64,000 bases of DNA, from positions 6,167,868 to 6,231,867 of the forward strand of contig NC_049984.1 in NCBI RefSeq assembly GCF_000003815.2. The letters are read 5' to 3'. Numbering within the stretch: the first letter of the stretch is position 1; each line of letters starts with the position of its first letter. The notes under the pieces are model-generated. The model ran no database searches. It was not told where the DNA came from and saw only the letters and a list, made by a program, of their open reading frames with translations. This stretch comes from Branchiostoma floridae (lineage: Eukaryota; Chordata; Leptocardii; Amphioxiformes; Branchiostomatidae). This document shows positions 3,001-54,663 of the stretch, piece after piece. The translations under genes and the position numbers were made by a program.

Positions 3001-6000
3001 GTATGCAGTACAAACAAACAAACAAACACAGATTCTAAGTTGATTTCTTTTTCCTTATCCCGACAGGTGAGACCCACTTCAGTGCGTCCCAGCAGCCGTT
3101 CCTGTACTTCCAGGTCCTGTTCCTGACCGGACAGTTCGAGGCGGCCATCGACTTCCTGTTCCGCGTGGACCAGCTCCGAGCGCACGCCGTCCACGTGGCC
3201 GTCGTTCTGTACGAGATGAAACTCCTGCTCACCCCCAACACAGTCCAGGCACAACTCTGTAGGTGGTCCTTATCAAAAATTGATATTCTTTCTATAGCAT
3301 TTTTTATAGCCTCTAGAAAATTCATAAAAAAAAATAAAATGTACATTCCAACTCATAATTACAAAAGCATCGAAAACAAAATTTATAACCAACCACAAAA
3401 CCGATGAATAAGGCCCAGGAAATAAGGAACTTCAAGATGGATTGTATCAACACAAGATGAACTCTGGTTATCTTACTTTTTTTGTAGATGGCCTGTATTT
3501 AAAGATAACTAGACTCAAGATAGACATCTAAGAAGACTCAAGATAGATACAATGTATTTATTTTTCAATAGAAAATCCCAAACTTTTTAAATGCTTGCAT
3601 TTTTTCATCAATGTATTTCAATATCTTGGTCAGCATTTATTATCATATGAATTTGATGCAACCATGAAAACTGTATTCATAATGAAAAGACAAGAGCAAA
3701 ACAGATGTTCCTTCTCCCTTCCGTAGTGACGAAGGAGGACGGTGACCCGGTGCCGATGCGGCGGCTGAACTTCGGTCGGTTGATGATGAGTTACACCAGG
3801 AAGTTTGAGTCCACTGACCCCAGGGAGGCTCTGCAGTACTTCTACATACTCAGGTGGGATGCGATGGGCATTCTACTGATTTCTGTTGTTTAGACAAGCC
3901 TTTGAATTTATATAAAAATAGTACATTGAAGCTTAATTTTCTTCTCATTTGCCTGTATGTGGATGGTGGTGGTTAGCCTGGTATCCTTACTTCTTTAAAC
4001 CAAAAAGCAGTTACTCAAGCAACTGGCTTTGATTTTGGAAATGGTCATACGTTTCAGACAGTTAACACCATGTCACTGAAGAAAGGTACCATCTGACCAT
4101 TTCCAAAATCATATCCAGTTGCTTGAGTAACTGCTTTTTGGCATGTCTTTTTACCTGGGTGTCTAACTTTCATTGACATACTTCTTTAAGTTCATGGCAC
4201 CTGGTGGGTTTGCACAAATATTCAGAAGTTTGATGTCTGTTATGCTGCATCTACAAAAGAATATTTGATACCCTAAATTAAGTTGAAACCTGTTTTTTTT
4301 TTTTAATCAAAGTGTGCCAGACTGTTGCAAGTGATCAGAGCTAGAATAGGATGAATGTCAGGTTAGGTATTAGTTGAGACTTTAGTCCTTCAGTTAGCAC
4401 AAGCATGATGTATACTGTTGCACATGACCAAGGAGCAAAACATGTTTCTTCAGGGAGCTGAAGACCCCTGGAGGAGAGAACCTGTTCATGGCCTGTGTCA
4501 GTGCTCTGGTGCTGGAGACTAGAGAGGTCAGGAGAAATACATGTATTAAAATTGCATTTAATTTCATGGAGATTTAATTTCGCGGTAGCGGGAAAATGGA
4601 CTTTTCGCAGTGGTTTTATCTTCGTGGTAGAACCATGCACTGTAGTCTCTTACTGTTATGGAAAAATATTCGCATTGGTTTTAAATTCGCGGTGCGAACA
4701 TTAAACCACCGCGAAAGTTTCTGCATTTACAGTATTAAGTCTTTGATATCCTGTTGCATAACTTAATTGCAATGTCCAGCACAAAGGAAATACACTGCTC
4801 TCCCAGTCAGGTGTTTTAACTGCATTGATTGACATTTTGGAAGCAATGGATTGCTTATTCCTTAGCAAACACTAGTCAGTGTGCAAAATACTTTTCTGGG
4901 CCAGGTTGCACAGTGTGCAACCTAGGGCAAAAACTAGGTTGCACAACTGAATTTCAAGTTGCACCACCTACAATTCACTAATTTCTGAAGAAAAAAAGTA
5001 CAATACATACATATTTGACTGATATGAAATGGAGCTGTGAGTGTGACAGTCCATTTATTTCTTGCAAGTAAATTGAGAACAAAATCAAGTTCTGCGGCTC
5101 AAAATCTAAGTTGCACCCTGTGCAACCTGAGTTAAGAAGTAAGTTGCACCAAGCAAAAAGTGGTTGCAATGTGCAAGTGTGCAAGTGGGTATTTTGCACG
5201 CTGCTAGTGCTGAAAATTTTGTTGTTGAATCTTCTTATGTGCCTTCCAGTTTGACATGCTGCTCGGAAAGTTGGAGAGAGATGGAACAAGGAAGGTAAGT
5301 ACTGGACCTCATATTTTATGCTGCAGTACCTAGGCCAGGAACTGGTACCTTGCTCCCCTCGTCCAACATATTGCACGATCCAAGCCCTTAGATGCTGCTA
5401 CCTTTAATCTCAGTCCTGTATCTTTTATGATCTGGTCTTTCTTTTGCTTGGGGTGTCTTCCCTGGGCCTGGGGTTGGAAAACTTTTGGTGGAATTCTTAT
5501 AAATGTATCTATGTTTTTGGTGGTCAACTTCTTTACATCACCAGACCATCTATGCCTTCTAGTCAAAATGGCCCCAAAACAATAAATTGTTCATCAAAGT
5601 TTAACTTTGATTTCATCATTTGGCATGCAATCTAGAAGTGTGATGCAGAGAGCACATATTTCACTAAGCCCTATTTCAAACTATGGCATGTCAAAAAGTT
5701 TCCACTTTTTTGAGCCATTGTATACAATCACGTATATCATGGCTTGATATCACCATTACTGACCAAGTTCCTTTTACATCACAGCCGGGAGCCATTGATA
5801 AGTTCCATGGTGACACCCACAAGATCATAGAGATGGTGGCTCAGGACACGGAGAGTAAGGGTCAGTCTGAGGATGCTGTCAGGCTGTACGAACTCGCTAA
5901 GGTAAGCTCCCTGCACTTTCACTGTAGGGTAACGATTTGTGTGGTTCTCAACTCTGCTATGGTCTTCTGAAGAGTTGTTTCGTTAAGTTTGAAAAGAAAC

Positions 6001-9000
6001 CTTTGATTTACTTAATATTCTCCCTCCCAAGTGTCCCAACCACACAAAAATCATGACCATAGCATGTCCAGAACACAAGATGTCAAACCTGGACGTTCTG
6101 CTGCAGTACCATAACAAGCCACCAGGTGGCCCTAAATCTAATCATTTCGAGGTCTCATATCATCAACACCTACCCACATACCAAGTATCAGGAAAATCCA
6201 ACCAGGCATTTTCAAGTTATTGTAGTCACAGACACACACACTAAGACACATGAATGCTGCCAAAAGTATAACCTTCTTGGCAAAGATTGAATGAAGAAAT
6301 CAAAAACTATGTCAATGAAGGTTAGACATCCAAGTAATAAGATATGCCAAAAAGCAGTTAGTCAAGCAACTGGATATGATTTTGGAATGGTCAGATGTTT
6401 CAGATGGTATGAAGGATAAGCATCTTGGCAAAGATAGCATAAAGGAATGAAAAACATTGCAGTTTCTACAAAAGAAGATAATTTCAAACCCTATAACTTT
6501 GTTTGTTGTCCCCCTGCTTGTAGGACCACGAGAAGGTTCTGATCCTGCTGAACAAGTTGCTGTGCCAGGTAGTGTCACAACCCCCCGCACCCCAGTCAGA
6601 CAGGGACAGACTCAAGGCTCTGGCTGTCGGCATCGCAGAGAGGTGGGGAAAACTTGAAATGTTTTCACCTGTACATGTGGTGTATTAAATGGAGCCAGTT
6701 TTGATTTCCTTACAATTTTGCTGTTACAGTACTGCTTTTTTTTTATGTACATGACTGTTGAATTAGAAGTGCCACATTTTCAACTACAAGATGGTTGTTT
6801 CTACAGTACAGGTACCAGTCCCAGGGCCACAGTGGTGGTACATGTCCGTGTACCTCAAATTATTCTTTTCTTTACATTCAAAGCAGTCTATAGACACAGA
6901 GTGTTATCCCTTCACATGCATGGTAAGACAGACTCACCATACATGGTTATTCTCCAGGTACCAGACCCAGGGCCACAGTGGTGCCCAGCTGGAGGCCAGT
7001 ACGTTCTTCCTGCTGCTGGACATGGTCACTTTCTTTGACCACTACCACACCGGGCAGCTGGACCAGGCACTGGACGTAAGATGTATTCTGTAATTTTTTT
7101 TATGCAGGAGTTTATGAAGCATTTCTTACTCTGGTTTGCTAGAAAAAATGGCAAGGGGGAGCACTCTGATGGAATGGAATGGAGAGACCAACCAGGGCAA
7201 TAGGTTTGAAGTTGGGGTTCCTCCTTTCAGGGTGTGGAGTTATTGATAATTTTTAAGTTCAAAGGGGCCATTCTAAGGTTTCCTGGGATACAATATTACT
7301 GTCAGACAGGTTACAGCTGAAGACTGACCTAGTAGCACTCCTGGTCACTCAGAATTGTATGCTTGTCAGAGGATCTGCTACCCAGGGTAAGGGGTGCATG
7401 GGGTTGCAGTGCCCCTGTAACCCTCTTTAGAGTTAGACAAAGCCCCGACTCACATGCAGAGCTGTCCAGGGAAATTGGCAAACAGAATTGGCACCATTCA
7501 TCCCAAAAATCAGACATAAAATTGCGTATAACTTCATCTTGCTGATATGAGTTAACTTTTAACAATCTCTTCCTCCCCTCAGATTATCCAGCGTCTCCAG
7601 TTGGTCCCCCTCACCCAGGAGGCGGTGGAACAGAGGGTCGCTGCCTTCTCTTCTTACGCAGATGAGGTGAAGTTTCCATCTTCTAGTAACCTTGGTTGGG
7701 AATAGGCTACGTGTAATGCAAAGGTTTGCTAGATCTGAGTCCTTTCATATTCATACCACCAATCTTGTGCCCTCTGGAAAGGCACTTTACATGTATTGCC
7801 TCACTTGGCTATCGTAAAATGAGTACCGGGGTGCAGTAGTGGACATCCTACAGATAGGGCGGTAAATGGAGGACCTGTGTTTGAGGAGAGCCACTCCATG
7901 AGCATGTCGAAGAACCCACCACACCTATCAAAAAGAGTAGGGGTCCTTCCCGGTGTGAGTGGATCAAAACCATTCCAGTCTGGATAGGGTAAGGAATTCT
8001 GAAAGGTTTATGAAACATTGGTTGTTAAAATCTATTTGGTTGTATTATAAGCTTAGAACCCAGTATAGTTTGAGTGAAACCCATTTATAACCGGTGTTTA
8101 ATGAATACCATCCTATTTCCATCCAGGTGAGAAGGAACCTTCCTGATGTGTTGTTGGCAGCCATGAACATCCTGTACTCAAAATACAAGGCTGTCAGGTA
8201 GGAATTGTGATTATGTTCTGCTTTATTGTCATTTTTTGCAGGGTTCAAATTACTGGGTGTTTGTGCACCCAGGTGCACCCAAAATTGGAGTTGTGCACCC
8301 AATTATTTTTTGTGGGTGCACAGGGTGCACCCAAATATTGTTTTGCGTTTATGTATGGAAAGATATCAAAGTATACTAGTGTAACGTTACATCATATTCT
8401 TGAGATCTAAGTGTTAGAAAGATAATAAAAATGTCTGTCATGGTACTTGTTTAAGAATTTGATAGCTTGTAACTAAGCTTTATTACTAGGTTATTACTTA
8501 AATTTAAGTGGTGCACCCAAAAATATTTTGGTGCACCCAATTTTTTTAAGCTGGGTGCACCAGTGCACCTAATCACAAAAATGAATTTCGCGCCCTGTTT
8601 TGAAATTCGTCTGGTACATCTGGTAATGAAGTCAGGTAACTTTTATTTTCATCTCAAAAAGATTTTGTAACTGTTACGTTTTGAAACCCTGCTGCCCACT
8701 ATCACTTGATTTTGTCGACGTAATCTCCACTGTTTTCTACTTCTGGCCTATTCTGCCAGGCATTTAAACGGTTAAAAATAGCTTGTTGGAAGTGTAAAGG
8801 TGTCCATTTGTCAAGGATGACAACTTGGTATGTTTATATGAAAGTACCGTATATTCTCGATTAAAGTACGCACTTTTTAAACTTTTCAAAATTCAAAAAG
8901 TGTCCCAAGTCATTGCCAAAGTCGGGGTGCGTACTTTATTTGAGGTTGGCTTCCGGACAAAATGGGAAAAGGAGCTGAAATTCGCGTAACACACAGCACA

Positions 9001-12000
9001 CATGGCCCGTAAAGGCACCATTCTTGCCTGAAAACAACAACTGAAAACAACAGGAACAACTGCAGGAACCAGCTCGATTTACAATGCCACATGGCACTGG
9101 ATCCCTGCCGAAAATGACCATGTCATTTTTAAGCCACGGAGACATCGATTTTGGATGATAATAGGCGTATAAAATGGATTGTTTACGTGCGCGCGTGAGA
9201 GGTAACTCCTGCCGTGATAGCCACAGAGCAGCCGTGGATAGCAGCCGGGATACTATTATTTAAATGAGCCAAATAGTTGAATCCTATTGGTCGATTCTCC
9301 CCACACATGCGGGATTACTGCAGTCTCGCCATTTTGTTGTCGGCTTTGGTAATGTATGCCGAGATTTGGTAAGTTTCGTTCTGAAATATTGTATTTCTGG
9401 GACTATCAATGTAATATTTGTGTGGCTCTTAGCTATGGGGTCCAGGTAGGAAACCTTACAGGTAATATTCGTGTGGCTCTTAGCTCTGGGGACCAGGTAG
9501 GGCACCTTACAGGTGATATTTCTGTGGCTCTTAGCTCTGCGGACCAGGGAGGGCACCTTACAGGTAATATTTGCGTGGCTCTTAGCTCTGCGGACCAGGG
9601 AGGGCACCTTACAGGTGATATTTGCGTGGCTCTTAGCTCTGGGGACCAGGTAGGGCACCTTACAGGTGATATTTGCGTGGCTCTTAGCTCTGGGGACCAG
9701 GTAGGGCACCTTACTGGTGATATTTGCGTGGCTCTTAGCTCTGGGGACCAGGTAGGGCACCTTACAGGTAATATTCGCGTGGCTCTTAGCTCTGGGGACC
9801 AGGTAGGGCACCTTACGGGTGATATTTGCGTAGCTGTTAGCTCTGGGGACCAGGTAGGGTACCTTACAGGTAATATTTGCGTGGCTCTTAGTTCTGGGGA
9901 CCAGGTAACACACCGTACAGGTAATATTTGCGTGGCTCTTAGCTCTGGGGACCAGGTAGGGCACCTTACAGGTGATATTTGCGTGGCTCTTAGCTCTGGG
10001 GACCATGTAACACACCTTACAGGTAATATTTGCGTGGCTCTTAGCTCTGGGGACCAGGTAGGGCACCTTACAGGTGATATTTCTGTGGCTCTTAGCTCTG
10101 GGGACCAGGTAGGACACCTTACAGGTAATATTTGTGTGACTCTTACCTCTGGGGACCAGGTAAGGCACCTTACAGGTAATATTTGCATGGCTCTTAGCTC
10201 TAGGGACTAGGTAGGACACCTTACAGGTAATATTTGCGTGGCTCTTAGCTCTATGGAGTAGGTAGGGCACCTTACAGGTAATATTTGCATGGCTCTTAGC
10301 TCTGGGGACCAGGTAGGGCACCTTACAGGTAATATTTGCATGGCTCTTAGCTCTAGGGACTAGGTAGGGCACCTTACAGGTAATATTTGCGTGGCTCTTA
10401 GCTCTGGGGACCAGGTAGGGCACCTTACAGGTAATCTTTGCATGGCTCTTAGCTCTAGGGACTAGGTAGGACACCTTACTGGTGATATTTGTGTGGCTCT
10501 TAGCTCTGGGGACCAGGTAGGACACCTTACAGGTGATATTTGCGTGGCTCTTAGCTCTGGGGACCAGGTAGGGCACCTTACAGGTAATCTTTGCGTGGCT
10601 CTTAGCTCTGGGGACCAGGTAGGACACCTTACTGGTGATATTTGTGTGGCTCTTAGCTCTGGGGACCAGGTAGGGCACCTTCCAGGTGATATTTGTGTGG
10701 CTCTTAGCTCTGGGGTCCAGGTAGGGCACCTTACAGGTGATATTTGCGTGGCTGTTAGCTCTGGGGACCAGGTAGGGCACCTTACAGGTGATATTTGCAT
10801 GGCTCTTAGCTCTGGGGACCAGGTAGGGCACCTTACAGGTGATATTTGCGTGGCTCTTAGCTCTGGGGACCAGGTAGGGCACCTTACAGGTGATATTTGC
10901 GTGGCTCTTAGCTCTGGGGACCAGGTAGGACACCTTACTGGTGATATTTGTGTGGCTCTTAGCTCTGGGGACCAGGTAGGGCACCTTACAGGTGATATTT
11001 GTGTGGCTCTTAGCTCTGGGGACCAGGGAGGGCACCTTACTGGTGATATTTGTGTGGCTCTTAGCTCTGGGGACCAGGTAACACACCGTACAGGTAATAT
11101 TTGCGTGGCTCTTAGCTCTGGGGACCAGGTAGGGCACCTTACAGGTAATATTTGCGTGACTCTTACCTCTGGGGACTAGGTAGGGCACCTTACAGGTAAT
11201 ATTTGCGTGGCTCTTAGCTCTGGGGACCAGGTAGGGCACCTTACAGGTAATATTTGTGTGACTCTTACCTCTGGGGACTAGGTAGGGTACCTTACAGGTA
11301 ATGTTTGTGTAGCTCTTAGCTCTGGGGACCAGGTAGGGCACCTTACAGGTAATATTTGTGTGGCTCTTAGCTCTGGGGACCATATAGGGAACCTTACAGG
11401 TAATACATGTATTTGGGTGGCTTTTGGCTCTTGGCACCAGGTAGGGCACCTCACAGGTAATATTTGTGTGGCTCTTATCTCTTGGGACAAGGTAACACAT
11501 CTTACAGGTAATATCTTTGTGGCTCTTAGCTCTGGGGACCAGGTAACACAATTCTGCATTTACAGTATATCAAACTAAGAAATTGTTTGGTAGCTTGTTT
11601 TCACTGTACTAGTACATGTTTAGCTGAAGACACATTCTGAAGCCAGAAACTTCCCATTATATCTAATGAGAGTAAGCATACCTTAAGTTACCTTATTTTT
11701 TTTTGCTTAAAGGTTTATTTAGCACTTTTTAGCCTGGGAATAAATCGTTCCTGTAGCAGCACAGACCCACTGGTCAGACCACTGGAACAAAATTGATGGC
11801 CAATACCTTGTTGTATGTCTTGTCTCACCTGTGAGGTAATAATTTTTTTGTACATTGTTTTAGATGGAGAAAGTCACAAAGGAAAGGCAGAGTCTACAGG
11901 GAAGGCTTCTCACAGACCCACACTGATGAAGACTTTATTCAACCAGAAGAACGAACTAAGATCCTGGAGCAAAGTCTGGGATAGGTTCCACTTTTCGCTT

Positions 12001-15000
12001 CTTGCAGCTATGAATGTATGGAAAGGATTACAGGGACTACAGGGCTCGAAATTCAAATTTTTGGATTAGGTGCACAGTGCACTGAAAAAATTGGGTGAGA
12101 TTTTGGGTGCACCACTGTCAGAAAAAAAAAGTAATTACAAAACTTGATAATTACAAGCTTATTAAATTAAATTCCTAAACAAGTACATTTTGTACCATGA
12201 CAGACATTTTAGTTGTCTTTCTATTACTTAGATGCGAAGAACATTGTGTATACTAGTATACTCTGATATCCTAACATGACTTTTGTGTAAACCTAATAAA
12301 ATGTTCGGGTGCACTGTGCTGGTGAACCCACAGAAAAAAAATTGGGTGCATAGCTCCAATTTTGGGTGCACCCAGTATTTTGAGCCCTCAGCTTTTATTA
12401 CATGGTTTGTCTAATTGCATACTAAGACCACACCAATTTAATTTCTTGGTTCACGGATTTTTTCATAAAAATATGGAGCGAGAGGGTGATATAAAAATGA
12501 AAATAAAAATTGTAAAATGGTTGGGGTAAAGGTAAGGGCTAATCCAAAACATAAAGAATAAAAGGTTTTCAGTTTGAAAAAAGTACAAAAACACTATTAC
12601 TGTACAGTTACAGCACCAGTTTGTTTAAAATTACAAAAGTAGTGTCAGTTTTTATGTTTGTCCCATTCTTCATGAATGAAAAATATGACTGCTATAATAA
12701 TACTCACATTTTAAGAAGCTTATATAATATGAAGGCCAATTTGTTACACCAGAAAGTTGGTGAATGGTTTCATTCATGGTGAAAATTTGCTGAGTGGTAA
12801 TTTTGATTTTGATTTTTTTCCCAAAAAATAGGAGCGAGCGAATCCGTGAACCAAGAAATTAAATTGGTGTGGCCAAGTAAGATTAGTTTTCCTGTGCTAT
12901 GTTGATATCAGAAGATATGGAACATATATTGTATGCAATTGAAGCTATTTCCCTTTGTTGTATAATACAGTCTGCAACAATATGACACCCATCTTAATTC
13001 TATCTTGTTTAGATCACAATTTTGACAACTTCTTGGCTGCACAGGAGTGTTGTCATGTGTACCTTTTAGTTTTTAGACATTGATTTTGTGTGAATTATCT
13101 GGAAGTTTGTGATGGATGTTCTATGTCATGTTCTATATTTATAATTTGTGCTTAATTCTCTTTAGTAGCCTAGGTCGTACTCTGTAAGGTTGTAATTTGT
13201 TACACATGACAATGACTATGTGGGACATGTGGCTACTCTGATGTGAAATGGTGATATCCAAAGTGTAAATATGTTCAGGTTGACTTCTTTTCTGTCAGCT
13301 TTGGAAAAGGAAGGGTCCAATGTGTCATATAATGAGTCGGTTCTTTGATGTTGAGAGGTGTTAATATTTTCCAACAGTGAACATGGCAACATTGTGATGA
13401 AATTTGGTGACAATATTTAGTTTGAATAGCTCAATACTTAAATTATGTTTTTGTCAAAAACACAAAAGTTTTTCCGAAGAACTTACAGGAAGAGAGATGA
13501 CATGTCTTTTGTTGTTTATAACTTTGTCACTTACTATTAATTAATTTATTACTTTGTCCCAAAGTTGTTTATGTGCAAATTGTGTCACAGAGCGAAGGAG
13601 ATAGTGAATTAAGTCTGTTTACCTACTGGTGCACAATAAAGTTCTTCAACCTATACAGATTCACTAGACTATTGCTTTAATTTTCTTTTGTGTACAGTAT
13701 ATTGTAGTAAAGTTAGAAATACACTGCATATTCTATGATGCATAGCATTAAAACCTTCTCATTTATTATTCCGAATGTATACATCTAATACAACCAATAT
13801 GACTTGATCTTGGTGACTGAGAAGACGAAAATGGATTCGTAATAATCAGTAAATGAGTAAAGATTACGGTAACTGATGACAAAATTTAGACTTTTATAAG
13901 AACTGATGGGAGTTTATCTATTTGAATCGACATCTATTTCTCACAGTTCAGTTCAGTTCATCCTCTTGGAGGTGACACCTGTGTCTCCACTCGTTTCTGT
14001 CCAGCATTACTGATCGGAGTTCGTTGGCCTCCAGACCTGTTTCCTCAAGCATCAGCTTCCTGAGTGTGGCCGAAGGGCGGCCTCGCCTGCGCGGCTCGTT
14101 TGGCTCCCAGAGCAAGACCTGACCTGCCATTTCCTCACAACTCTACAATAAAAAGTTGGAATAACCCAAAAGAGATTGTGGTATCACGAAAAAGGAAGCA
14201 GTGATACTATTGATATTTCATATACGGATTTATATGAAAAATTATGTCAATTTTACAATATGACAATCTATTAAACCCTACCTCATTTTTGTAATGATGT
14301 ACTTTCCCTGTACATGTTTTACCGTAGCACCTGTCCAAAAACAAATTGCTTTGTGATATCTTTAATAACAAATGCTCTTTTTGCCTCAGAAGAGCAAATG
14401 GAATTTTTTAAACAAGTTGCATATATATATTTGATGTCAGAAAATTATTCCACACCCAATAAAGTTGGTTTGAAGAAAATTGGACATCGTTTCGCGATAT
14501 CTTATGTTTTTGCAAAAAATAAGCTCTTTTGGGGTAAATTGAGCTATTTTGATCAATAGTTTGCATATTTCATGTCAGAAAATTATTCCGCACCCAACAA
14601 AGTTAGTTTGAAGAGAATCAGACATCATTTCGCAATATCTTTTTTTTTGTGTGAAAAATGCTCTTTTTGCCTCAGAAGAGCAAATTGAGCTTTTTTGACC
14701 AATTATTTGCATATATCATTTCAGAAAATTATTCCGCACCCAACAAAGTTGGTTTGAAGAAAATCGGATATCGTTTCGCGATATCTTGTTTTTTTGTTTT
14801 TATCTTGCGAAAAAATGCTCTTTTTGGCTCAGAAGAGCAAATTGCGCTGTTTTTACCAATAATTTGCATATTTCATGTCAGAAAATTATTCCGCACCCAA
14901 CAAAGTTGGTTTGAAGAAAATCGGATATCGTTTCGCGATATCTTGTTTTTTTGCGAAAAAATGCTCTTTTTGGCTCAGAAGAGCAAATTGCGCTGTTTTT

Positions 15001-18000
15001 ACCAATAATTTGCATATTTCATTTCAGAAAATTATTCCGCACCCAACAAAGTTGGTTTGAAGAAAATCGGATATCGTTTCGCGATATCTTTTTTTTGCGA
15101 AAAAATGCTCTTTTTGGCTCAGAAGAGCAAATTGCGCTGTTTTTACCAATAATTTGCATATTTCATGTCAGAAAATTTTTCCGCACCCAACAAAGTTGGT
15201 TTGAAGAAAATCGGACATCGTTTCGCGATATCTTGTTTTTTTGCAAAAATAATGCTCTTTTTGCCTCAGAAGAGCAAATTGAACTTTTTTGACCGATAAT
15301 TTGCATATTTGATGTCAGAAAATTATTCCGCATCCAACAAAGTTGGTTTGAAGAAAATCGGACATCGTTTCGCGATATCTTATGTTTTTGCAAAAATAAT
15401 GCTCTTTTTGCCTCAGAAGAGCAAATTGAACTTTTTTGACCGATAATTTGCATATTTGATGTCAGAAAATTATTCCGCATCCAACAAAGTTGGTTTGAAG
15501 AAAATCGGACATCGTTTCGCAATATCTTATGTTTTTGCGGAAAAATGCTCTTTTTGTCTCAGAAGGGCAAATTGAGCTATTTTGACCAATAATTTGCATA
15601 TTTTATGTTACAACATTCTTCTGCACCTAACAAAGTTGGTTCAAAGAAAATCGTTTCGCGATATCTTATGTCGCCAAATTCGGTAATAAACGTTAACGTC
15701 ATCTATCTGACCTGGTGTAAAAAAGCTGCGCATGCCTACTTTTTAATTTAAATGTTCCTAGGTACGTCCTCTTATACCTAGAAGATGTAGCCAATACTGT
15801 CAATCAACTCGAAGAAAAAAGGTAAAGAGTACCGCTGTAACAAACGTTGCCAGTAACGTTTGTTACCTGCCCTGTAATACACAACCAATGGGTACAAAAA
15901 TAAAAAGTTGCCATTTTTGGCTATGGGTAAAAGAGGAATTTTCCCAAACAATCATGTAGTTTTGACTGAAAAATGAGCTGTTTTATTTTTCGACCCAAGA
16001 ATCGCCATTTTTGTATTTCAATGAGGACGAGTTCTCCCTACCTCTTCTTTTTGTGATGACGGACTTTCCCGGTACGTTTTTTAGCATCCGTCCAAAAATA
16101 GAAGAAATTAATTGAACTTCCAATTGAATAAAGGAAGGACAAACCTATTAACGGCAAGTGTAGATAGTGATATGTGCCTACCGTTGTAAAAGGTTCATCG
16201 AAAATCACCGTGCCGTTCTTGTTTTACAAAGGAAACTGCGATTGTTCGTGATGCGCTTCAAATCGACCTTGATTTGCGGATGCGAAACGTGGATGTCACG
16301 ACGTGGCCCTGCATCGAGCGCAAAACTGTAACATGAAATGATGCTGAAATGGTTTATTAGATTAAAAACTGTTGCACCGGTCCTAAGGGCTGAATTGCAA
16401 TTTTTGTACATTGTTCACTTCACATATACGTACATATACAACATATTAAATACGTTACACTAATATGTCCGATTCCTTTAAAAAAACACTGCAAGTTTTC
16501 ACTTAGGAGTCTGACGCAATAGGGGAAAGTGCTGTTACTCAACCGGGACGTCCTACATTTGAAACTAGTGAAGCTGACATTATTTCTTAAAGTTCCCCCG
16601 CCGCAATGGGAGCCATGAACTGTATCTGCTAGAGTTCGCAAGAGATTGCGCATATCTAAGACATAGGATGTCCCTCCTCAGCTGAGCGTTCAGACGACTG
16701 AGACCTGTTATGCGCAGAGCAGACTCATAGGTGAGATCAGGTGACGTACTCTGGTCCCAGTTTTTAAACATATTTGTATCTCATCTGAGATGCAACAGAT
16801 TTTTTGTCAGATTCGTCACACATGTTCATGTGAACTTATTCAGCCTTTCTCTGAAATCCCAGTACCAGACCAAAACTGGAGTTCTATGGAATTCAAGGTA
16901 CTACACTTAACTGGCTGAAGGCTTTCCTGACGAATACAGAGCAAACGGTAGTGGTGGAAGGGAAGGCCTCAGCTCCAGTTAAAGTAGCGTCGGGAGTTCC
17001 GCAAGGGACTGTGCTGGGACCATTGCTCTTCCTCTTGTACATAAACGACTTGCCAGACCAGCTCGATTCAAGTGTGAGGTTATTCGCCGATGATTGTCTG
17101 TTATATATAGAGGTATCCACACAAAATGATTCACAAGTTCTTCAGAAAGATCTGAACACCCTGGAAGAATGGCAAAGGAAATGGCTTATGCAGTTCAATC
17201 CTGATAAGTGCTATATCATGCACATAACGAACAAACGAACACCAAAAGTGTCCCCTTACCAGTTTTGTGGTCAGACATTAGAAACCACAAAAACCCACAC
17301 ATACCTGGGTGTTACATTAACAACTGGGCTGAAGTGGGATGTCCATGTTAACAAAATAACAACCAAGGCTAAACAGACATTGGGAGTAATCAAACGCAAC
17401 TTGTGGGCATGCCCAACCAAGGTAAAATCACTTGCATACACGTCACTAGTAAGACCTAACCTTGAGTATGCCGCTACAGTATGGGACCCGTATACAAAGA
17501 AAGACAAAGATAAACTTGAAAGGGTACAGAACCAAGCTGCCCGATTCTGCACAAACAACTATAACAGGGATTCTAGTGTTACCAAAATGAAAACAGATTT
17601 GCAGTGGATGTCACTTGAAGATAGAAGGAAAATGTCCAGACTTTCCATGATGTACAAAATGACCAATAAACTGGTGGACGTACAAACTGATAAGTATCTA
17701 ATACCAGCTCAAAAAAGAACAAGAAACAGTCATGCATTCAAATACCAGAGTTACCAACCTAGGATTGATGTGTTCAAAAATTCGTACTTTCCCAGAACTA
17801 TCGTAGAGTGGAATTTGTTATCACCAAGTACAGTAGGGGCATCTTCTCTGAGTAGTTTTAAAGAACGCTTGCAGATAGATGTGCAAAAGTTCGGTGTAAT
17901 GAGTCGTTCGGTGTAATGTAACCAGCTGCTGCCGCGCCGCGTGCCTGCGAAGCTGGTGTGTCACGCCGAACGGCGGTTATACCGGCTATATAGATACAGA

Positions 18001-20017
18001 TACAGATACAGATGATGATTCGTTTCCAAGTAACTCTCAGTTAAAATTTTGGAGTTTGACTCGCCAGGATATAGAATGTCGCCATTATGTATAACTAGTA
18101 TTTTCTTTGTCAATGTATTCATCAAGGCGCACTGTGAAGGCTATTTGACAAGTGGAATATCAACATACGGATGTTTGCCAATTGTACAGATGACAATTGA
18201 TGAATTCAGGGTTTTTAAACGTCGACAAATGACACCGATAAGCGCCACCTGCTGCAAAGATATCGCACGAGCTGAACAATGAGGAAATATGAATCGCCTA
18301 TATCTCCAAGTAGATAGTTAGAAGAGCAAAATCGCTTGACTTACTTATAGATCAGTATATTAGCCTACCGTGGTGAAAATTTCATCGACATACAACGCTT
18401 TTTCCTTGTTTCATAAAGTAAAACGCACTCCCGTCATGCGGGGTTCAAATTGGCCTAAAATTGCCTATGTGGAACATATCGGTCGGGTGCGCCCTCACTT
18501 TGTGCGATACTGGAACGTCAGCAGTGGTTTTCATATCTCTCCTAGGAAACGACGGATTTGTACCAAACTTGGTCGACATGTCTATGAAAACTTACTAAGT
18601 CGCTGTATGAATTCTCATTAAATCATATTGATTGGTTATTGAGTTTTGAGCTGTTGAAGTTTGGAAAATAAAAAGTGGACTTCATAGATAAACGTTCGGG
18701 TATACCGAGTGTAACCACTTGCAGAGGGAAGTGCTGATATCGCCGAACTACTTTTAGTAGAGTTATATGGAAATTTGTGACTATTTCAGGATGGACATCA
18801 TTTTGTAATGTCGGACTTTCCGGGTTTGGACTTTTGTGAGATCACGGAAACTGACGACTTCGACAGATAAATGGACTCATGTACCTTCAAACAATTGTAA
18901 AATAACGAAAAGAGCAACATTTCTAGCAACACAGATAGCTCATTTCTAACAACACAGATAGCTCAGTATATTAGCCCACCGTTGTGAAAGTTTAAAATTT
19001 TAAGTAAAAACATAGCTCCCCCTCGAATGTAGGGCTGTTCGGCACTTGGGCAGATAGGCCCCATTCCAATCCGGGTGTTTTGGCCCCAGGCCTAGGCCGA
19101 GGACATTTCGGCCTCAGATTCAGGACATTTCGGGCCCAGGTATCGATATCTAACACGATATATCTTACCACTAAGAAGTCCTTATCAAAACGCAATATGG
19201 AGAAACATGGTAGTTTCCCATCAACCGTCAGGCTGTAAAAAACGTAACGTTACAGGTGTGTACTCAGAATCGTCTCTGCGGAACATAGCGGTTGGAACGC
19301 GGCTTCCGCGATCTGAACGTGAACGTTTAAAACTTCATATGTCTCTTATGACTCTTTTATGAGAATCGGATTTCTTTCAAATTTGGCTGAAATGTTCATA
19401 AATGCTTGGAAAGTCGCTATGCCAATTGCTATACTGAAATCATTGATCATTATCGAGTTACTTGTTACTAGCTAACTTTGTGATCAGTGGTCTCAAACAC
19501 ATTGGGCGTTGGTTTCCAAAACATAGTGCCTTCTAAGCTCTATATTTATTTGGGGTTCATAAGTTACAAACATAATCCACACACATAAACGAGTACACTT
19601 TATTTATACACCTCGGCTCCACATTATGCAGGATACTACTACTACACTAGTACTTGTCGTTGAGGTGGATATCGTTTCATTTAATTGGATCCAGGGTAAG
19701 CTAGGGGCACAACCCGTCGTACGTGCAACTACGTGCAAAACGTAGGCAATCCTTTGCGATCCGTACGTGGTAAGTAACGCCTTCATACGAAAACCTAACA
19801 GAATGCATGCAGATTTCTCTGTGCTCGAGCTGCGGATTCACCCCCGTACGAGCCAGGACGGGCGTGCCCTGTACAACCAATGTGAGTAGGGAAACCGCAC
19901 GTAAGCAGCACGTGTAAGTTTTTTTAATCAGGTTTTTTTATTTAAGGTGTCTTGGGGACAGGTTTTGGATATTACACACAGGTCCGGTGATCCGGTAACC
20001 ACCCATATCCATATTCC

Positions 20018-20080
<63 letters not shown>

Positions 20081-23000
20081 AAACTGGCAAACATTATACA
20101 GATGCACTTAATCCGCCAACGAAATTTAAAAAGAAAGGTTAACACCCTCCATGCACCCCAGTATTTCTTATCAAAATGTACATTTCAGTGAATGAAGAGA
20201 CTCTTTTTCTCACAACCCTTTCTTTATTTCACACCAATGTCACCATCTGTCACCTTCCTCAGAGCAATTCAGACTAGTTTATATTGCCCTAACGTTACTG
20301 CTATAGGTGTCGCTGCGTACAGATGCAGTCACAAACGTTAAGTAGTTACATAACGTTATATACAGTGATTGCTGACGTACATTTCTCAGGCATCATTGAA
20401 ATATGAACATATGAATATGACCTATATATACTGCACACAAAGACACTTGGAACAATAGAGATGACACGTGTAGTTTATTTTGGGAAGAATTGAAAAAATG
20501 GCAGATCAAACTATCATGAATATTATGTCATACCTGTGACGTGAAAACGTTCGATACGGGTGTTCCGGACCAGGCCATAACTTCCGTATCGCACAGGTCG
20601 AAAGGCGTATCACACATGCTTCCTTCGAGTAAATCGAACGGGCCGAATACGGCACGGTTTGCAATTCGAATACCTGATTCGGACGTTGGAACATTGCTGT
20701 TGCAACACTTTTTGTTTGAGGGCACCAAATTTGTTCAACTTCTGGCGCATTTCGCATCAAAGCATCTCAGGTGGGTATGACATAAATAAAACACAACACG
20801 GTGTATTCCGCATCACCCTCGGTCCCAGCCCTCCCGCGGGTTGGATCACCGGCCGTCGAGTGATCCGACCCACGGTTGGGCTGATACCTCTAGTGATACG
20901 GAATACATCGTGTTGTATTCTATATGTATATATACTGCTAATTATACACAGTACTCATGTTGGGAAAGCAAACTCACATATATCTTAGTACCAGCAGAAG
21001 ATGAAATATTGTGCTAAATATAACATACATGTTCATTTATTACCAGTATATGCTTTATATGGTTTTGAAGACCCAAACATGTGTCACTCAGATGACTTGG
21101 TATCAAAGGGGTCAAAACAAACCAACAGTCTTATTCTACAATTTATCAGGACACTGTACTTCTGACCAATCTACCTGAAAATTTCATATTTTCTATACAA
21201 CGTGTAGTATTCAGTTGGACCAACAATGTTGTTAACGTTAACAACAGGTACTTTGATGACCACTCTAGACTATAGACAGACAAGTGATGCATGAAGAGCT
21301 CTGACTCCTGCTGTGTAATCAGCCTGTCTTCTTCTGCCATTTCACGTTTTCAGGCATCATTCAATCCCCTGAAAAAAGAAGAAATGGTCTCAGTGATGTC
21401 TGTAAACAAACATGCAAAACCCATCATTCATGGAGATATCAAGAGCAGTAATCTTGTTCTCGCATTTGTAAGTTGTGTGATAAACCTGTACAATACCTTA
21501 CCTCACCCTTCTCTAGACCAAAAATCAAACAAACAGCACCAATTCTGTACATTTTTAGTGTCTAGCCAGCCAAGGAACTTTTACCCGTAAATTTTACTCG
21601 TATGGTACCTCATTCCAAACCAAACATCCATGCATATGTCACCTATTTATATACATATACTTACAGGTATCCAGATCAACAATCTATATGTTATCTGTAG
21701 ATAGAGTACCTACCTTGTCTCGAGACTGACAAGTCATGCATATATTACCTGGTTACAGATATACAGAACAATAAGCCATAGACATTATGTATATGTTACC
21801 TGTACAGCACATGACCTGGTCTTCAGATATTACCTGTCAGGTGTGTTCACTGGTCCCCAGAGCTGAGAGTCACACAAATATTACCTGTTAAGTGCCCTAC
21901 CTGGACCCCAGAGCTAAGAGCCATGCGAATATCACCTGTAAGGTGCCCTACCTGGTCCCCAGAGCTAAGAGCCACGCGAATATTACCTGTAAGGTGCCCT
22001 ACCTGGTCCCCAGAGCTAAGAGCCATGCAAATATCACCTGTAAGGTGCCCTACCTGGTCCCCAGAGCTAAGAGCCACGCAAATATCACCTGTAAGGTGCC
22101 CTACCTGGTCCCCAGAGCTAACAGCCACACGAATATCACCTGTAAGGTGCCCTACCTGGTCCCCAGAGCTAAGAGCCACACGAATATTACCTGTAAGGTT
22201 CCCTACCTGGTCCCCATAGCTAAGAGCCAAGCAAATATAACCTGTAAGGTGCCCTACCTGGTCCCCAGAGCTAAGAGCCACACAAATATCACCAGTAAGG
22301 TGCCCTACCTGGTCCCCAGAGCTAAGAGCCACGCAAATATTACCTGTAAGGTGCCCTACCTGGTCCCCAGAGCTAAGAGCCACCCAAATATCACCTGGAA
22401 GGTGCCCTACCTGGTCCCCAGAGCTAAGAGCCACACAAATATCACCTGTAAGGTGCCCTACCTGGTCCCCAGAGCTAAGAGCCACACGAATATTACCTGT
22501 AAGGTTCCCTACCTGGTCCCCATAGCTAAGAGCCAAGCAAATATAACCTGTAAGGTGCCCTACCTGGTCCCCAGAGCTAAGAGCCACACAAATATCACCA
22601 GTAAGGTGCCCTACCTGGTCCCCAGAGCTAAGAGCCACGCAAATATCACCTGTAAGGTGCCCTACCTGGTCCCCAGAGCTAAGAGCCACGCAAATATTAC
22701 CTGTAAGGTGCCCTACCTGGTCCCCAGAGCTATTAGAGCCACCCAAATATCACCTGGAAGGTGCCCTACCTGGTCCCCAGAGCTAAGAGCCACACAAATA
22801 TCACCTGTAAGGTGCCCTACCTGGTCCCCAGAGCTAAGAGCCACGCAAATATTACCTGTAAGGTGCCCTACCTGGTCCCCAGAGCTAAGAGCCACGCAAA
22901 TATTACCTGTAAGGTGCCCTCCCTGGTCCGGAGAGCTAAGAGCCACAGAATTATCACCTGTAAGGTGCCCTACCTGGTCCCCGGAGCTAAGAGCCACACG

Positions 23001-24504
23001 AATATTACCTGTAAGGTTTCCTACCTGGACCCCATAGCTAAGAGCCACACAAATATTACATTGATAGTCCCAGAAATACAATATTTCAGAACGAAACTTA
23101 CCAAATCTCGGCATACATTACCAAAGCCGACAACAAAATGGCGAGACTGCAGTAATCCCGCATGTGTGGGGAGAATCGACCAATAGGATTCAACTATTTG
23201 GCTCATTTAAATAATAGTATCCCGGCTGCTATCCACGGCTGCTCTGTGGCTATCACGGCAGGAGTTACCTCCGCGTGATGGTGGATCTATTCCAAGATGG
23301 CGCTGGGGTTATTGGGGTCATTGGGACAGACTACTATTGTATGGGTAGAACTTTTTTGAGGGGTGATTATTTCTTCCTTAAACCGTCGAATTTTTTTTGT
23401 TATATTTGTCGTTTGAATAAAGGTGATAAACGTTGACAATAAGTTGATTGTACGTTTATCAATTTGAAAACTATAAGGCATTTGTGTTTTTTGTCAACAA
23501 ACAGCATGGTTACCCATGCTACGAATGGAACATCACATGCAGCAGTCGACGTCTCCAGAAGCATTTCGGCGTCACAAAAGACGGTCGGAAAGCACAAAAC
23601 ATCGTTTTCTTTGAAGTGGATCAAGATCAAGACCAGTTTTGGGAAAGATGGAAAACTATTCAGGATGTTTTCATGTTCAAATGAACTGTAAAGCAGGTGT
23701 TGCAGTGCCAAATAACTTTGTTTGACATGCCATAGCCGATTTACAAGTTTGCAGAGACGGATTTGCCGGTGGAGAAAACATAGCGTTTTCATAAATTCAG
23801 AAGTCCTTGATTTAGGCAAAATTACCATCAGAAAAGAGATTAAACACTATTAATTTAGAATTTGTCTGGTGCAAAAGGTGTTCAAGATCGCTGGAGAAGG
23901 GGTGCGTACTTTATTCAGGTTTTTCCATTTTACGTTTCAGTGAAGCAAAATTGTCTGAGACTTGCCCTAAATCGGGTGCGTACTTTAATTGGGGTGCGTA
24001 CTTAAATCGAGAATATACGGTACTTTTTATTGTGTTTTCAGGAGTGCGGGTCAGGCCAGTCCAACATCCAGAGGCCGTCTAAGAGAGGACAGCAAGACAG
24101 AGTCTGTGAGTGTCAATTAACTTAATATGTTCTGACTAGATCAGGATTCAATGTATTATCTGCATGTAATTGCAGATTATGTAAGGTTGGACACACTAAA
24201 ACTACATAACTGACTGAAGATCTGTACATATAATTGTTTTTTTTTTTTGGTGTGATACATTTAATTTTGTTGTGGAGGGGTAAAAAAAGGTAAAAGCTCT
24301 GTCTGGAAATATTTCACAATTTACAGTGCAGTGACAATGATGATCACAGTGCTAACTGTTTCCTGCTTGCCCCCTTGGTTCCAGTACCTGACCTACCTGA
24401 GGAAACAGGCCCGCGCCCTCATCACCTTTGCAGGCATGATTCCCTACAGGATGCCGGGGGACACCAACGCACGCCTCGTGCAGTTAGAGGTGCTCATGAA
24501 CTGA
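18..24504 (+). CDS. NUP93: NUP93 nucleoporin, C-terminal part (16 exons, 5' end outside window)
   Basis: Encodes the last ~514 residues of NUP93 (vertebrate protein ~820 aa), an alpha-helical linker scaffold of the nuclear pore inner ring. Exons read: 18-112, 453-515, 777-854, 1344-1431, 1783-1873 (near-identical second copy 2065-2155), 3067-3258, 3727-3853, 4454-4526, 5250-5294, 5785-5901, 6524-6642, 6958-7075, 7583-7666, 8127-8197, 24042-24105, 24385-24504. All have GT-AG borders and consistent phases if one copy of the duplicated exon is used. Recognisable family blocks are [29 protein letters not shown], the [15 protein letters not shown] region, and the C-terminal [11 protein letters not shown] and [15 protein letters not shown] before TGA at 24502. 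The last intron but one is expanded to 15.8 kb by repeats. Introns without their own entry show nothing notable. Identification is firm; exact borders were placed by eye. Confidence 0.95.
1783..2155 (+). repeat. Tandem duplication of a 91-bp NUP93 exon
   Basis: Exon 1783-1873 and its following intron are repeated about 282 bp downstream as 2065-2155. The two exons differ by only a couple of silent changes and encode the same peptide ([14 protein letters not shown]...LLLEEYG). At 91 bp, including both would break the frame, so only one can be used. The first copy keeps a pyrimidine-rich acceptor. The second is preceded by the end of the duplicated intron and lacks a good tract, so the first is probably the working exon. 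The trailing intron copy decays by about 2370. Confidence 0.88.
4000..4141. repeat. Fold-back repeat of the hammerhead-associated family
   Basis: Two arms of about 47 bp (4000-4047 and 4095-4141) are inverted copies starting with CCAAAAAGCAGTTACTCAAG. The centre holds CTGAAGA, like box 1 of a hammerhead ribozyme, but the GAAA-CGTC part is missing. The same sequence recurs singly at 6345-6425 and at 44213-44318. Probably a decayed Penelope-like terminal repeat or derivative. Confidence 0.6.
4530..4735. repeat. Dispersed repeat with TTCGCGGT motifs
   Basis: About 200 bp in a NUP93 intron with repeated, partly inverted TTCGCGGTG/CACCGCGAA motifs, ending in TTCTGCATTTACAGTAT. The same terminal motif reappears at 11553-11570. 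It looks like a degenerate TIR element; no coding capacity. Confidence 0.4.
4868..5212. mobile_element. MITE-like element with ~21-bp terminal inverted repeats
   Basis: The ends CACTAGTCAGTGTGCAAAAT and its inverted partner (5190-5212) bracket about 345 bp rich in inverted GTTGCAC motifs. No coding potential. It lies in the NUP93 intron before exon 5250-5294. The target duplication was not resolved. Confidence 0.6.
6345..6425 (-). repeat. Single-arm fragment of the 4000-4141 repeat family
   Basis: Carries the same CCAAAAAGCAGTTAGTCAAG arm as 4000-4047. Read on the minus strand it keeps a GAAACATC motif but has lost the CTGANGA half. Confidence 0.5.
7745..7995 (+). repeat. SINE-like sequence
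   Basis: Contains the phrases seen in other SINE-like copies here (GTGCCCTCTGGAAAGGCACTT, then a segment on cautioned 'GGGTCCTTCCCGGTGTGAGTGG'-type tail), in the NUP93 intron after exon 7583-7666. No clear B box, so it may be only the body and tail of a SINE. Confidence 0.35.
8239..8597 (+). mobile_element. MITE with CAGGG-type ends, copy 1
   Basis: Starts CAGGGTTCAAATTACTGGGT and ends in inverted form CGAAATTC/GCGCCCTG; the interior is full of GTGCACCCAA motifs. A related copy lies inverted at 12040-12389. hAT-like ends are possible; the target duplication is unclear. Confidence 0.55.
9411..11550 (+). repeat. 51-bp minisatellite array, left arm (~42 units)
   Basis: The unit is about 51 bp, reading GTAATATTTGCGTGGCTCTT then AGCTCTGGGGACCAGGTAGG then GCACCTTACAG. 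Variants are GTGATATT, ACACACC and TCTGCGGACCAGGGA. Because 51 is a multiple of 3, frames without a stop stay open for hundreds of codons on both strands (755 codons on the minus strand, 17-aa period). That is a consequence of unit length, not evidence of a gene. Units decay beyond about 11400. Confidence 0.95.
11864..11984 (+). other. Exon-like sequence, possible alternative 3' exon of NUP93 or captured exon
   Basis: The acceptor-like TACATTGTTTTAG is followed by a 39-codon open frame to TAG at 11982-11984. This frame ([15 protein letters not shown]..., then [15 protein letters not shown]) is the one that exon 8127-8197, ending in phase 2, would read into. An AATAAA lies at about 13636. A different frame here stays open longer (to 12069), and no family was recognised. 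It lies inside the large intron element, so it may be a captured exon. Confidence 0.3.
12040..12389 (-). mobile_element. MITE with CAGGG-type ends, copy 2
   Basis: Inverted relative of 8239-8597: starts AGGGCTCGAAATTC and ends AGTATTTTGAGCCCT, with GTGCACCC motifs inside. It lies inside the large intron element. Confidence 0.55.
12428..12872. mobile_element. MITE with 32-bp near-perfect TIRs
   Basis: The terminal inverted repeats begin CCACACCAATTTAATTTCTT and continue GGTTCACGGATT (12428-12459), matched inverted at 12841-12872. The 445-bp element is AT-rich and non-coding. Its clean TIRs suggest a fairly recent insertion. Confidence 0.8.
12873..13944. other. AT-rich stretch without recognisable gene
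   Basis: No convincing ORF or repeat structure was seen. An AATAAAGTTC motif at about 13636 could be a poly(A) signal for the exon-like sequence at 11864-11984, but nothing else supports a transcript end here. Confidence 0.4.
13945..14130 (-). pseudogene. LINE ORF C-terminal tail fragment
   Basis: The minus strand encodes ~60 aa ([20 protein letters not shown], then [21 protein letters not shown]), a pattern common at the C-terminus of non-LTR retrotransposon polyproteins (GRP...D..W). No RT domain is attached, so this is a 5'-truncated fragment. Confidence 0.6.
14330..15670. repeat. ~146-bp satellite array (~9 units)
   Basis: Tandem units start at about 14417, 14562, 14708, 14866, 15012, 15157, 15302, 15448 and 15595, recognised by GCATATTTCATGTCAGAAAA. 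Each carries TTTCGCGATATC and a GCTCTTTTTGGCTCAGAAGA segment. Short repeated ORFs appear on both strands only because the units repeat. A flank motif (TTTTGTAATGA..ACTTTCC) sits beside the array at 14290 and recurs near 16050 and 18800. Confidence 0.9.
15700..16860. repeat. Low-copy modules flanking the satellite
   Basis: Non-coding. The segment 16040-16200 (GATGACGGACTTTCCCGGTA, then CTACCGTTGTAAAAGGTTCA) is related to 18350-18400 and 18790-19000, so a larger module was duplicated within this core. A short inverted repeat around GTAACAAACGTT lies near 15837-15867. Confidence 0.4.
16870..17916 (+). pseudogene. 5'-truncated non-LTR retrotransposon reverse transcriptase
   Basis: An open frame of ~348 codons encodes the second half of an RT domain: [20 protein letters not shown], then the catalytic FADD box ([10 protein letters not shown]), [24 protein letters not shown] and a C-terminal region typical of jockey/CR1/L2-like LINEs. 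The N-terminal RT palm and endonuclease are missing. The coding part shows no frameshift, so the insertion is fairly young. TAA at 17914 is followed by a short GC-rich 3' region and a GATACA tail. Confidence 0.88.
17987..18013 (+). repeat. (GATACA)n LINE 3' tail
   Basis: About four GATACA units end the retrotransposon copy, as simple-repeat 3' tails do in CR1/L2-like LINEs. Confidence 0.7.
18014..20020. other. Non-coding core with degenerate repeats
   Basis: Holds module relatives (18350-18400, 18790-19000), a 28-bp direct repeat (ACACAGATAGCTCA twice, 18930-18965) and, near 19696-19731, GGGGCACAACCCGTCGTACG, which recurs inverted near 53128-53160. No gene was supported. Confidence 0.4.
20021..20077. 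repeat. (TA)n microsatellite
   Basis: About 28 uninterrupted TA dinucleotides. Confidence 0.97.
20527..20935 (+). repeat. Composite dispersed repeat, copy 1
   Basis: A ~260-bp body (starting GTCATACCTGTGACG..GAAAACGTTCGATACGG) is joined to a palindromic segment that begins ACACGGTGTATTCCGCATCA and ends with its inverse before TTGTATTCTATA. Related copies lie at 44592-44914 and, inverted, at 53621-54237. No ORF was judged real. Probably a non-autonomous DNA transposon. Confidence 0.7.
21354..21467 (+). pseudogene. Orphan protein-kinase exon (catalytic loop)
   Basis: A phase 0-0 exon-like stretch of 38 codons has acceptor ACGTTTTCAG and donor GTAAGT. It encodes [17 protein letters not shown], matching the kinase subdomain VIb catalytic loop (H-x-D-(I/L)-K-x-x-N), closest in style to TKL-group kinases (MLK/TAK1/IRAK). 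The usual HRD is HGD. No DFG exon or other kinase part was found nearby. Probably a host exon captured in the intron element. Confidence 0.5.
21610..23060 (-). repeat. 51-bp minisatellite array, right arm (~24 clear units)
   Basis: Same unit as 9411-11550 but inverted. Clear units run from about 21860 to 23060, with degenerate units back to about 21610. The flank 23021-23270 repeats 9199-9449 almost exactly. Two internal blocks (around 22200 and 22510) are near-identical multi-unit segments, showing higher-order duplication. Confidence 0.95.
23280..24020. other. Right subterminal region of the large intron element
   Basis: Contains at least three GTGCGTACTTTA-type motifs (about 23900, 23967 and 23990), as does the left end (8862, 8925). 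These could be transposase-binding subterminal repeats. Short ORFs on both strands (e.g. 23400-23828 minus, 142 codons) have no recognised family. Confidence 0.4.
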
Positions 24505-32860: not shown

Positions 32861-46435
<13,575 letters not shown>

Positions 46436-53620: not shown

Positions 53621-54237
53621 ATAGAATACAATACGGTGTATTCCGCATCACCCTCGGTACCAGCCCGACCGCGGGTAGGATCGCCCGAATAGTCTCCAAG
53701 CAGACCCTACGGTGCCTTAGAAATAGTATCAAAGCTGGCCAGGGACTTGGTATACCGGCACCAGGTGCCCGTTTGACTCCCTTAGCCGGCTATCTCCCTT
53801 TGACCGGCTATACTCCTTTGACAGCTTTGATACTATTTCTAAGGCACCGTAGGGTTTGCTTGGAGACTACGCCCGAAGGCCGGAGGGCGATCCGACCCGC
53901 GGGAGGGCTGGAGCCGAGGGTGATGCGGAATACACCGTGTACATGTTGTATTTTATCTATGTTATACCCACCTGAGAAAGCACATGTTTCGATGCGAAAT
54001 GCGCCAAAAGTTGAGAAAATTTGGTGCCCTCGAACAAACATTGTTACAACAGCAATGTTCCAACATCCGAAACAGGTATTTAAATTTTCGACCGCTCAGC
54101 ACTTGGCGTGCACAGAGTACGTTCGAAATGTCCGATGGAAGTCTGTGTGATAAAACTTTGAAGCCTGTGTGGTACGGCAGTTTATCACATGGTCCGGAAC
54201 ACCTGTATCGAACGTTATTGTGGCCCCGGTATGACAT
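53621..54237 (-). repeat. Composite dispersed repeat, copy 3, with nested insert
   Basis: Inverted relative of 20527-20935. The palindromic part (53621-53955) is split by a separate element (53691-53868). The body (53960-54237) ends GGTATGACAT. Confidence 0.7.
53691..53868. mobile_element. Nested MITE
   Basis: Inverted ends AGTCTCCAAGCAGACCCTAC, continuing GGTGCCTTAGAAATAGTATC (about 47 bp), mirrored to 53868. It sits inside the palindrome of the composite repeat. Confidence 0.85.
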
Positions 54238-54317
54238 GAATAGGGATATAGAATAGTGAAACGGATACAAAGAAATCAAGCAAGTTCACCAAGTTAAGAA
54301 TTCGTCTTTCATCGCCA

Positions 54318-54640: not shown

Positions 54641-54663
54641 AAATCCGCACGGTCGTAACGTCC

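Follow-up and report, generated by a model that had tools for sequence, protein, structure and literature searches.

Foldback elements (FB) of Drosophila have arms of short tandem repeats and produce 9-bp target duplications, and Polinton/Maverick elements, which produce 6-bp duplications, carry polymerase, integrase and packaging genes. In Tetris, a foldback of Drosophila virilis, the terminal inverted repeat (TIR) is described as having a flanking domain on the outside and tandem repeats inward of it, and three complete copies are reported (PMC4079207). Target duplications of 7 bp, rarely of 8 bp, are given for Galileo, together with long TIRs that grow by tandem-repeat expansion and by recruitment of non-TIR segments (PMC4168063), and the tandem repeats in these TIRs were reported to contain binding sites of its THAP domain (PMC3688188). 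Amphioxus is known for minisatellites termed ‘mirages’, described as duplicating the exon–intron boundary of the gene in which they lie, with units that often hold AG/GT splice signals (PMC3087553). Our search of the full-text literature gave no paper on foldback elements in amphioxus; the family reported here may be catalogued in Repbase, which lay outside that search. A literature listing for amphioxus transposons with a terminal inverted repeat and a minisatellite gave work on PGBD5 only.

Here, we analysed a stretch of 64,000 nucleotides from Branchiostoma floridae (the window), in which a sequence-only reading had suspected a giant foldback transposon of 15.2 kb inside an intron of NUP93. 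A giant, recent foldback family is real; it had been suspected rightly and bounded wrongly. We consider it very likely that the locus holds two nested transposons, a 1.1-kb TIR element and, placed into it afterwards, a 14-kb member of a foldback family that is moved in trans.

Results

Both elements have their home in one NUP93 intron (8198–24041, plus strand). The coding exon upstream of it (8127–8197, plus strand; AG/GT boundaries read from the sequence) has a translation of 23 aa, for which all five PDB sequences listed were Nup93 with weak scores (best E 0.025), and the last coding exon (24385–24504, plus strand) matched Nup93 chains with a best E of 1e-14. These two are connected in frame by a further exon (24042–24105, plus strand), which was placed by its frame and its AG/GT splice sites and begins 21 bp past the right end of the outer element. 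Since the exons join in frame, both arms lie in a single 15.8-kb intron, as had been claimed for the whole arrangement, and the window contains no N bases. For NUP93, the insert would account for growth of this intron from about 0.7 kb to its present length.

Other repeats were noted in the surroundings. A GTGCACCCA-rich repeat at 8272–8598, outside the element, is 71% identical to an inverted counterpart inside it (12039–12372). Further downstream, 40876–44531 is a block of ~295-bp tandem units and related direct repeats that by eye look like repeated sushi/CCP exons, and 53633–55100 contains several near-palindromic stretches of 160–330 bp.

The ends from which the 15.2-kb element had been proposed, about 28 bp long and flanked by TA, are present as matching 27-bp ends that differ from one another by one base, with TA adjoining both (8845–8846 and 24021–24022). 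The subterminal GTGCGTACTTTA repeats described with them occur at four sites in the window, 8862(−), 8927, 23902 and 23976. The end sequence CCGTATATTCTCGATT stands at 8847(+) and 24005–24020(−) and is absent elsewhere in the window even at three mismatches. What these ends enclose on the outside of the foldback is a left part (8847–9198, plus strand) and a right part (23272–24020, minus strand), which have the short TIR and the GTGCGTACTTTA motif in common; no longer similarity between the two parts appeared among the best 61 rows of a self-comparison. The outer left end showed no relation to phages.

As the sequence-only reading had suggested, we searched the genome, that is, the window's own assembly (G000, 513 Mb in 431 contigs), for other convergent CCGTATATTCTCGATT ends at TA. 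The motif has 38 exact sites, compared with 0 for a reversed-pattern control, and these resolve into 17 convergent pairs and 4 single sites. Fourteen pairs span 1,086–1,126 bp, one spans 2,429 bp, one 8,287 bp, and the pair in the window 15,174 bp; TA adjoins all 36 exact ends contained in the 20 fetched regions. These ends bound a separate 1.1-kb family and not the foldback. With its TA duplication, short TIRs and many dispersed copies, the outer element shows the features of a TA-duplicating TIR transposon and is putatively Tc1/mariner/pogo-like.

The relation between the two elements becomes evident from the copies of the outer one. Fifteen uninterrupted copies were fetched, and 14 of them, namely 13 of the 14 short pairs plus L018 (which has a one-base gap in its left end), were aligned with the outer parts of the window; L002 was too diverged and had been omitted beforehand, and the interrupted or one-ended regions L015, L016, L017, L019 and L020 were also kept outside the alignment. 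The insert is missing at the foldback site in all 14 aligned copies, which are 90–99% identical to the window (89.8% for L006 when its run of N is counted as mismatches). At this site a single CGCGTGA is found in 12 of the 14 empty copies; the window has CGCGTGA (9192–9198), then 14,073 bp, then CGCGTGA again (23272–23278, the first seven bases of the right outer part), each adjoining the inner repeat. Because the aligned copies read through the site, the outer element is an ordinary 1.1-kb TIR element into which the 14,073-bp piece was inserted. The two most diverged empty copies, L001 and L014, read CGCGTGATCGCGTGA, with a second 7-mer one base on and without an insert. Their bases downstream of the site are unlike those of the window, where the sequence beyond the second CGCGTGA agrees with that of the other twelve copies; for this reason the simplest reading of the pair in the window is still a 7-bp duplication that arose by insertion. 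L001 and L014 have the same length as the other copies, which points to divergence as the probable origin of their sequence, rather than to an excision scar.

Two further copies of the outer element were found to be interrupted elsewhere. In L016 (G000:C17:17520587-17530473, at ~1797–8970), a copy is broken by a 7.1-kb insert, the ends of which are 81% complementary over 43 bp (GGGCTGTTCC...) and are each followed by short tandem arrays; ATT stands at both junctions and is possibly a 3-bp duplication. L015 (G000:C17:8429573-8432601) is a copy with an insert of ~1.3 kb near its position 225.

The foldback itself is a transposon of 14,073 bp (9199–23271) with termini reading GAGGTAACTCC.... Its inverted repeat starts at 9199 and 23271, at a distance of 352 bp from the left and 749 bp from the right outer end, and has no mismatch over its first 288 bp; this corresponds to the almost identical unique segment of the earlier description. 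Each arm consists of a unique terminal segment of 212 bp (left, 9199–9410, plus strand; right, 23060–23271, minus strand), identical on the two sides, and of a 51-bp minisatellite array. The arrays have the opposite orientation ascribed to them before, with ~42 units on the left (9411–11556, plus strand; also delimited as 9411–11545) and ~24 units on the right (21850–23056, minus strand). What stood of the earlier proposal was a giant foldback with minisatellite arms; what fell was its delimitation by CCGTATATTCTCGATT/TA, as the element has its own GAGGTAACTCC termini and 7-bp duplication and is nested in the 1.1-kb element.

The left array was also considered as coding sequence. A frame of 761 aa on the minus strand (9284–11569) has no stop, and its distinct changes comprise 11 synonymous and 20 non-synonymous ones (35% synonymous vs 29% expected without selection). 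Counting all occurrences, 48 of 108 changes are synonymous (44%), and a frame with a stop in its consensus gives 48 of 108 as well. Two other frames of the array also have a stop-free consensus, and we read the 761-aa frame as being under no clear selection. Its matches to Pfam (DUF7077, DA_N, Costars, DP and DUF1902) were discarded, zero stretches passing alone.

Genome-wide, the 212-bp arm has 13 matches. Twelve of them constitute six inward-facing pairs (in the window, C4, C13, C2, C299 and C6b, the latter a second site on C6) with spans of 14,065–17,198 bp, and the thirteenth, C2:420513 (L031), is a fragment of ~110 bp with 85% identity, for which no second arm was found. The same six convergent pairs, 14.07–17.2 kb apart, account for all 12 exact genomic sites of the 18-bp terminus; at two mismatches this 18-mer gave 9 matches vs 12 in total for a reversed control, i.e., chance level. 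Target duplications adjoin the ends of five of the six copies (CGCGTGA, CAGTGTG, AAATTTTG, CACTGAC and TTCCACT), four being exactly 7 bp long and one, AAATTTTG, 8 bp. No duplication was seen for C299, the contig of which ends 7 bases after the element. Long terminal inverted repeats with internal tandem repeats characterize all six copies, the one in the window included, with 51-bp arrays on both sides and an array of 145–147-bp units in the core. The foldback family comprises six or more recent copies, dispersed over unrelated sites (six loci on five contigs), and the element moves as a unit with duplication of its target.

In four core blocks (~4.0–4.4 kb aligned), the 15 pairs of copies differ by 0.36–1.68%. 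Only 0.36–0.55% separates the window, C4, C13 and C299 in these blocks, and in an unrooted tree C2 and C6b split together from the other four with a support of 0.998. Heterozygosity in amphioxus is given as 3.2–4.2% (PMC12500494). As the differences among the four closest copies lie below this range, presence/absence alleles may still segregate.

The arrays enclose a core of 10.3 kb (11546–21849), which recurs in unchanged order in the five other copies. It had been taken for other DNA trapped at this place, and this did not hold: the core is common to six copies at different sites and therefore travels together with the ends instead of having been captured at the NUP93 locus. Differences between copies concern a segment of the window copy, 13946–14128, that none of the alignments with the five further copies covers, and the length of a 146-bp tandem array (14370–15653). 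Four copies also carry a LINE fragment with a reverse transcriptase domain (RVT_1; 16870–18002, plus strand), which spans 1,133 bp in C4 as in C299 and is present by alignment, though not by string match, in C13. C6b has clean pre-insertion sequence at the LINE site, and C2 is without this stretch and further sequence. Being present in the four closer copies and empty in C6b, the LINE is a passenger that was gained once and then multiplied by later moves of the element.

Several shorter features of the core were recorded as well. A dispersed repeat (20521–20850) is found twice elsewhere in the window (44589–44859 and 53886–54242) with 76–89% identity. A splice-flanked open stretch at 21354–21470 resembles a kinase catalytic loop and was considered as a possible captured kinase exon; the 39 PDB matches listed were all kinases and involved the same 16–20 residues at weak scores (best E 0.88). 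The 100-aa open frame around it gave no kinase family by profile, only Peptidase_M50 with E 0.14, and another open stretch, 11862–11981, gave no PDB match.

No transposase had been visible in the sequence-only reading, so that the enzyme would have to act from elsewhere, and our searches agree with both points. A six-frame Pfam search in the core of the window copy (11600–21598) returned no transposase domain; its matches were the LINE reverse transcriptase and one further hit below threshold. From the other copies, ten pieces were fetched and surveyed for ORFs of more than 200 aa, leaving out frames with N or 51-bp-repeat motifs; those listed were LINE pieces and the 146-bp repeat only. Three loci with the domain PF21787 (TNP-like_RNaseH_N), which we take to be the P-type catalytic domain, were considered as same-ended partners of the foldback and rejected: none has GAGGTAACTCC within one mismatch or an inverted end pair with a 7–8-bp duplication, and the only similarity to the element among them is a 30-bp stretch of L037 that matches the 146-bp array (87%, E 0.01). 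The 7–8-bp target duplications of the foldback agree with those of the P superfamily (Galileo group), and a P-type/THAP transposase was found neither in the core of the window copy nor, in a same-ended partner, among the three PF21787 loci. With no transposase domain in the core of the window copy and no shared ends at these loci, we read the element as non-autonomous.

The two arms of one copy, compared over 179 bp, show no differences in the window, C4 and C13 and two in C6b, and the arms of C6b differ from those of the window, C4 and C13 at 7–9 of the 179 positions. The main information in this comparison comes from C13 and C6b, because the arms of the window and C4 are identical between these copies as well as within them. 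Homogenisation of the arms is not general: of the 179 positions, 11 differ between the two arms of C2 and 3 between those of C299. The match of the right arm to the left one ends after ~175 bp in C2 and C6b, where a different sequence of ~170–200 bp follows before the right array; in the window, C4, C13 and C299, left-type sequence is found on both sides and the terminal repeat extends over 212 bp and more.

Most array units belong to one side; the comparison covered the first 2.6 kb per side, or 4.2 kb for C2. The sharing of unit types reaches 0.52 among the left arrays of the copies and just 0.00–0.18 for the two arrays within a copy, and is thus higher on the same side between copies. At the inner end, all six left arrays close with an identical unit, which three of the six right arrays have as well. 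Crossing between sides is confined to the outermost units: in C4, the left array opens with units that elsewhere begin right arrays. These patterns would be explained most simply by an exchange between paired arms that involves no more than their outer few hundred bases; this exchange is supported but not proven, and its direction is unrooted. The copies seem to catch the growth of an inverted repeat by arm exchange, a step that is usually just inferred.

Discussion

In the course of events that we propose, a non-autonomous TIR element of 1.1 kb entered a TA in the NUP93 intron first, and the 14-kb foldback (9199–23271) later entered this element, duplicating CGCGTGA. We infer that the foldback moves as DNA, by cut-and-paste, with a transposase supplied in trans. 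Its 51-bp arrays may act as repeated sites for transposase binding or synapsis, and pairing of the arms during gap repair could copy the end of one arm into the other and so lengthen the TIR.

Two other accounts of the locus have been refuted and retain hardly any probability. A single 15.2-kb foldback with CCGTATATTCTCGATT ends and a core of trapped local DNA, the model of the sequence-only reading, has in its favour that both ends are convergent, TA-flanked and in the same intron; however, elsewhere these ends delimit a 1.1-kb element, the insert is absent from 14 of 14 aligned copies, and five further loci have the 14-kb inner part between different flanks. That a small foldback came first and its 10-kb core grew by later insertions at the NUP93 locus would agree with the repeats in the core that are also found outside the element. 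For the shared core this is contradicted by the same ordered core in five other insertions, four of them with duplications of their own, and growth at this locus can hold only for 13946–14128 and for the length of the array. We regard it as unlikely that the inner element is autonomous, its core encoding a multi-exon transposase of a family outside Pfam. A 10-kb core kept collinear in six copies and short splice-flanked open stretches such as 21354–21470 speak for it, but apart from one sub-threshold match, Pfam recognized in the core of the window copy (11600–21598) only the LINE reverse transcriptase, the ORFs of more than 200 aa listed for the fetched pieces of the other copies were LINE and 146-bp repeat, and the open frame of the array is under no clear selection.

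Returning to a nested foldback mobilized in trans, the type of its enzyme has to be considered. Provided that an enzyme in trans is right, we see about an even chance that it would be of the P-superfamily type, which is favoured because Galileo combines 7-bp, rarely 8-bp, duplications with long tandem-repeat TIRs and with THAP sites in those repeats. An enzyme of another superfamily with long duplications (hAT, Merlin, Mutator or Dada) is a somewhat weaker candidate, still well within consideration: duplications of 7–8 bp are not diagnostic of a single superfamily and do not separate these four from P, Tetris with its similar architecture has duplications of 8–10 bp (PMC4079207), and those of Dada, for which a family of B. 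floridae is listed, are given as 6–7 bp (PMC3706591). On the other hand, four duplications of 7 bp and one of 8 bp are the spread reported for Galileo, and Dada-U6 and Dada-U1 are reported to be without terminal inverted repeats (PMC3706591). Neither this absence of terminal inverted repeats nor the insertion into small RNA genes that marks Dada was found here, the foldback having long TIRs, with no Rfam family at gathering score in 8800–24100 and no tRNA in the window. Polinton/Maverick does not fit either, as the duplications are of 7–8 bp and the Pfam scans of the core gave no polymerase, integrase or packaging domains.

The efficacy of DNA transposition in nature is reported to drop significantly over 6 kb, with Pack-MULEs reported up to 7 kb, and artificial constructs, P-element-based ones among them, to have moved 100–200 kb (PMC6431247). 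Natural cut-and-paste elements rarely carry large cargo, and here six near-identical copies of 14–17 kb, mostly non-coding, are found at separate sites; they allow a test of the part that repeated binding sites in long TIRs are proposed to play. A bolder and rather doubtful reading is that the foldback is a natural 14–17-kb vector of non-coding DNA, a foreign transposase serving its ends and arrays and the minisatellite arms enabling it to carry a constant 10-kb core that exceeds the ~6 kb at which natural transposition is said to become inefficient. An exon captured from the host, or a multi-exon transposase that escaped recognition, may also reside in the core, and the family would then be a new giant foldback superfamily.

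Among the systems compared, Tetris has the same TIR plan as the foldback of amphioxus, a middle without apparent coding capacity and few complete copies, and is likewise thought to be moved by the enzyme of another element. It differs in its 8–10-bp duplications and in a middle that is variable in composition and size, whereas here the duplications are of 7–8 bp, the 10-kb core is constant and the total is 14–17 kb. Galileo resembles the family in its 7–8-bp duplications and its long, internally repetitive TIRs, a likeness by description, but includes a copy with a THAP transposase, of which none was seen here. FB elements of Drosophila and the giant transposons bounded by them also place arms of short tandem repeats around a large middle, yet with 9-bp duplications, while the middle in amphioxus is constant across copies. 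The 51-bp unit is similar to mirages in having, by eye, AG/GT splice signals; mirages, however, are arrays of a gene's own exon–intron boundary, and the array here is part of a transposon. The foldback plan is known from Tetris and Galileo, and what is new is the size of the elements and a 10-kb core that stays constant among them while having no recognised gene that is its own.
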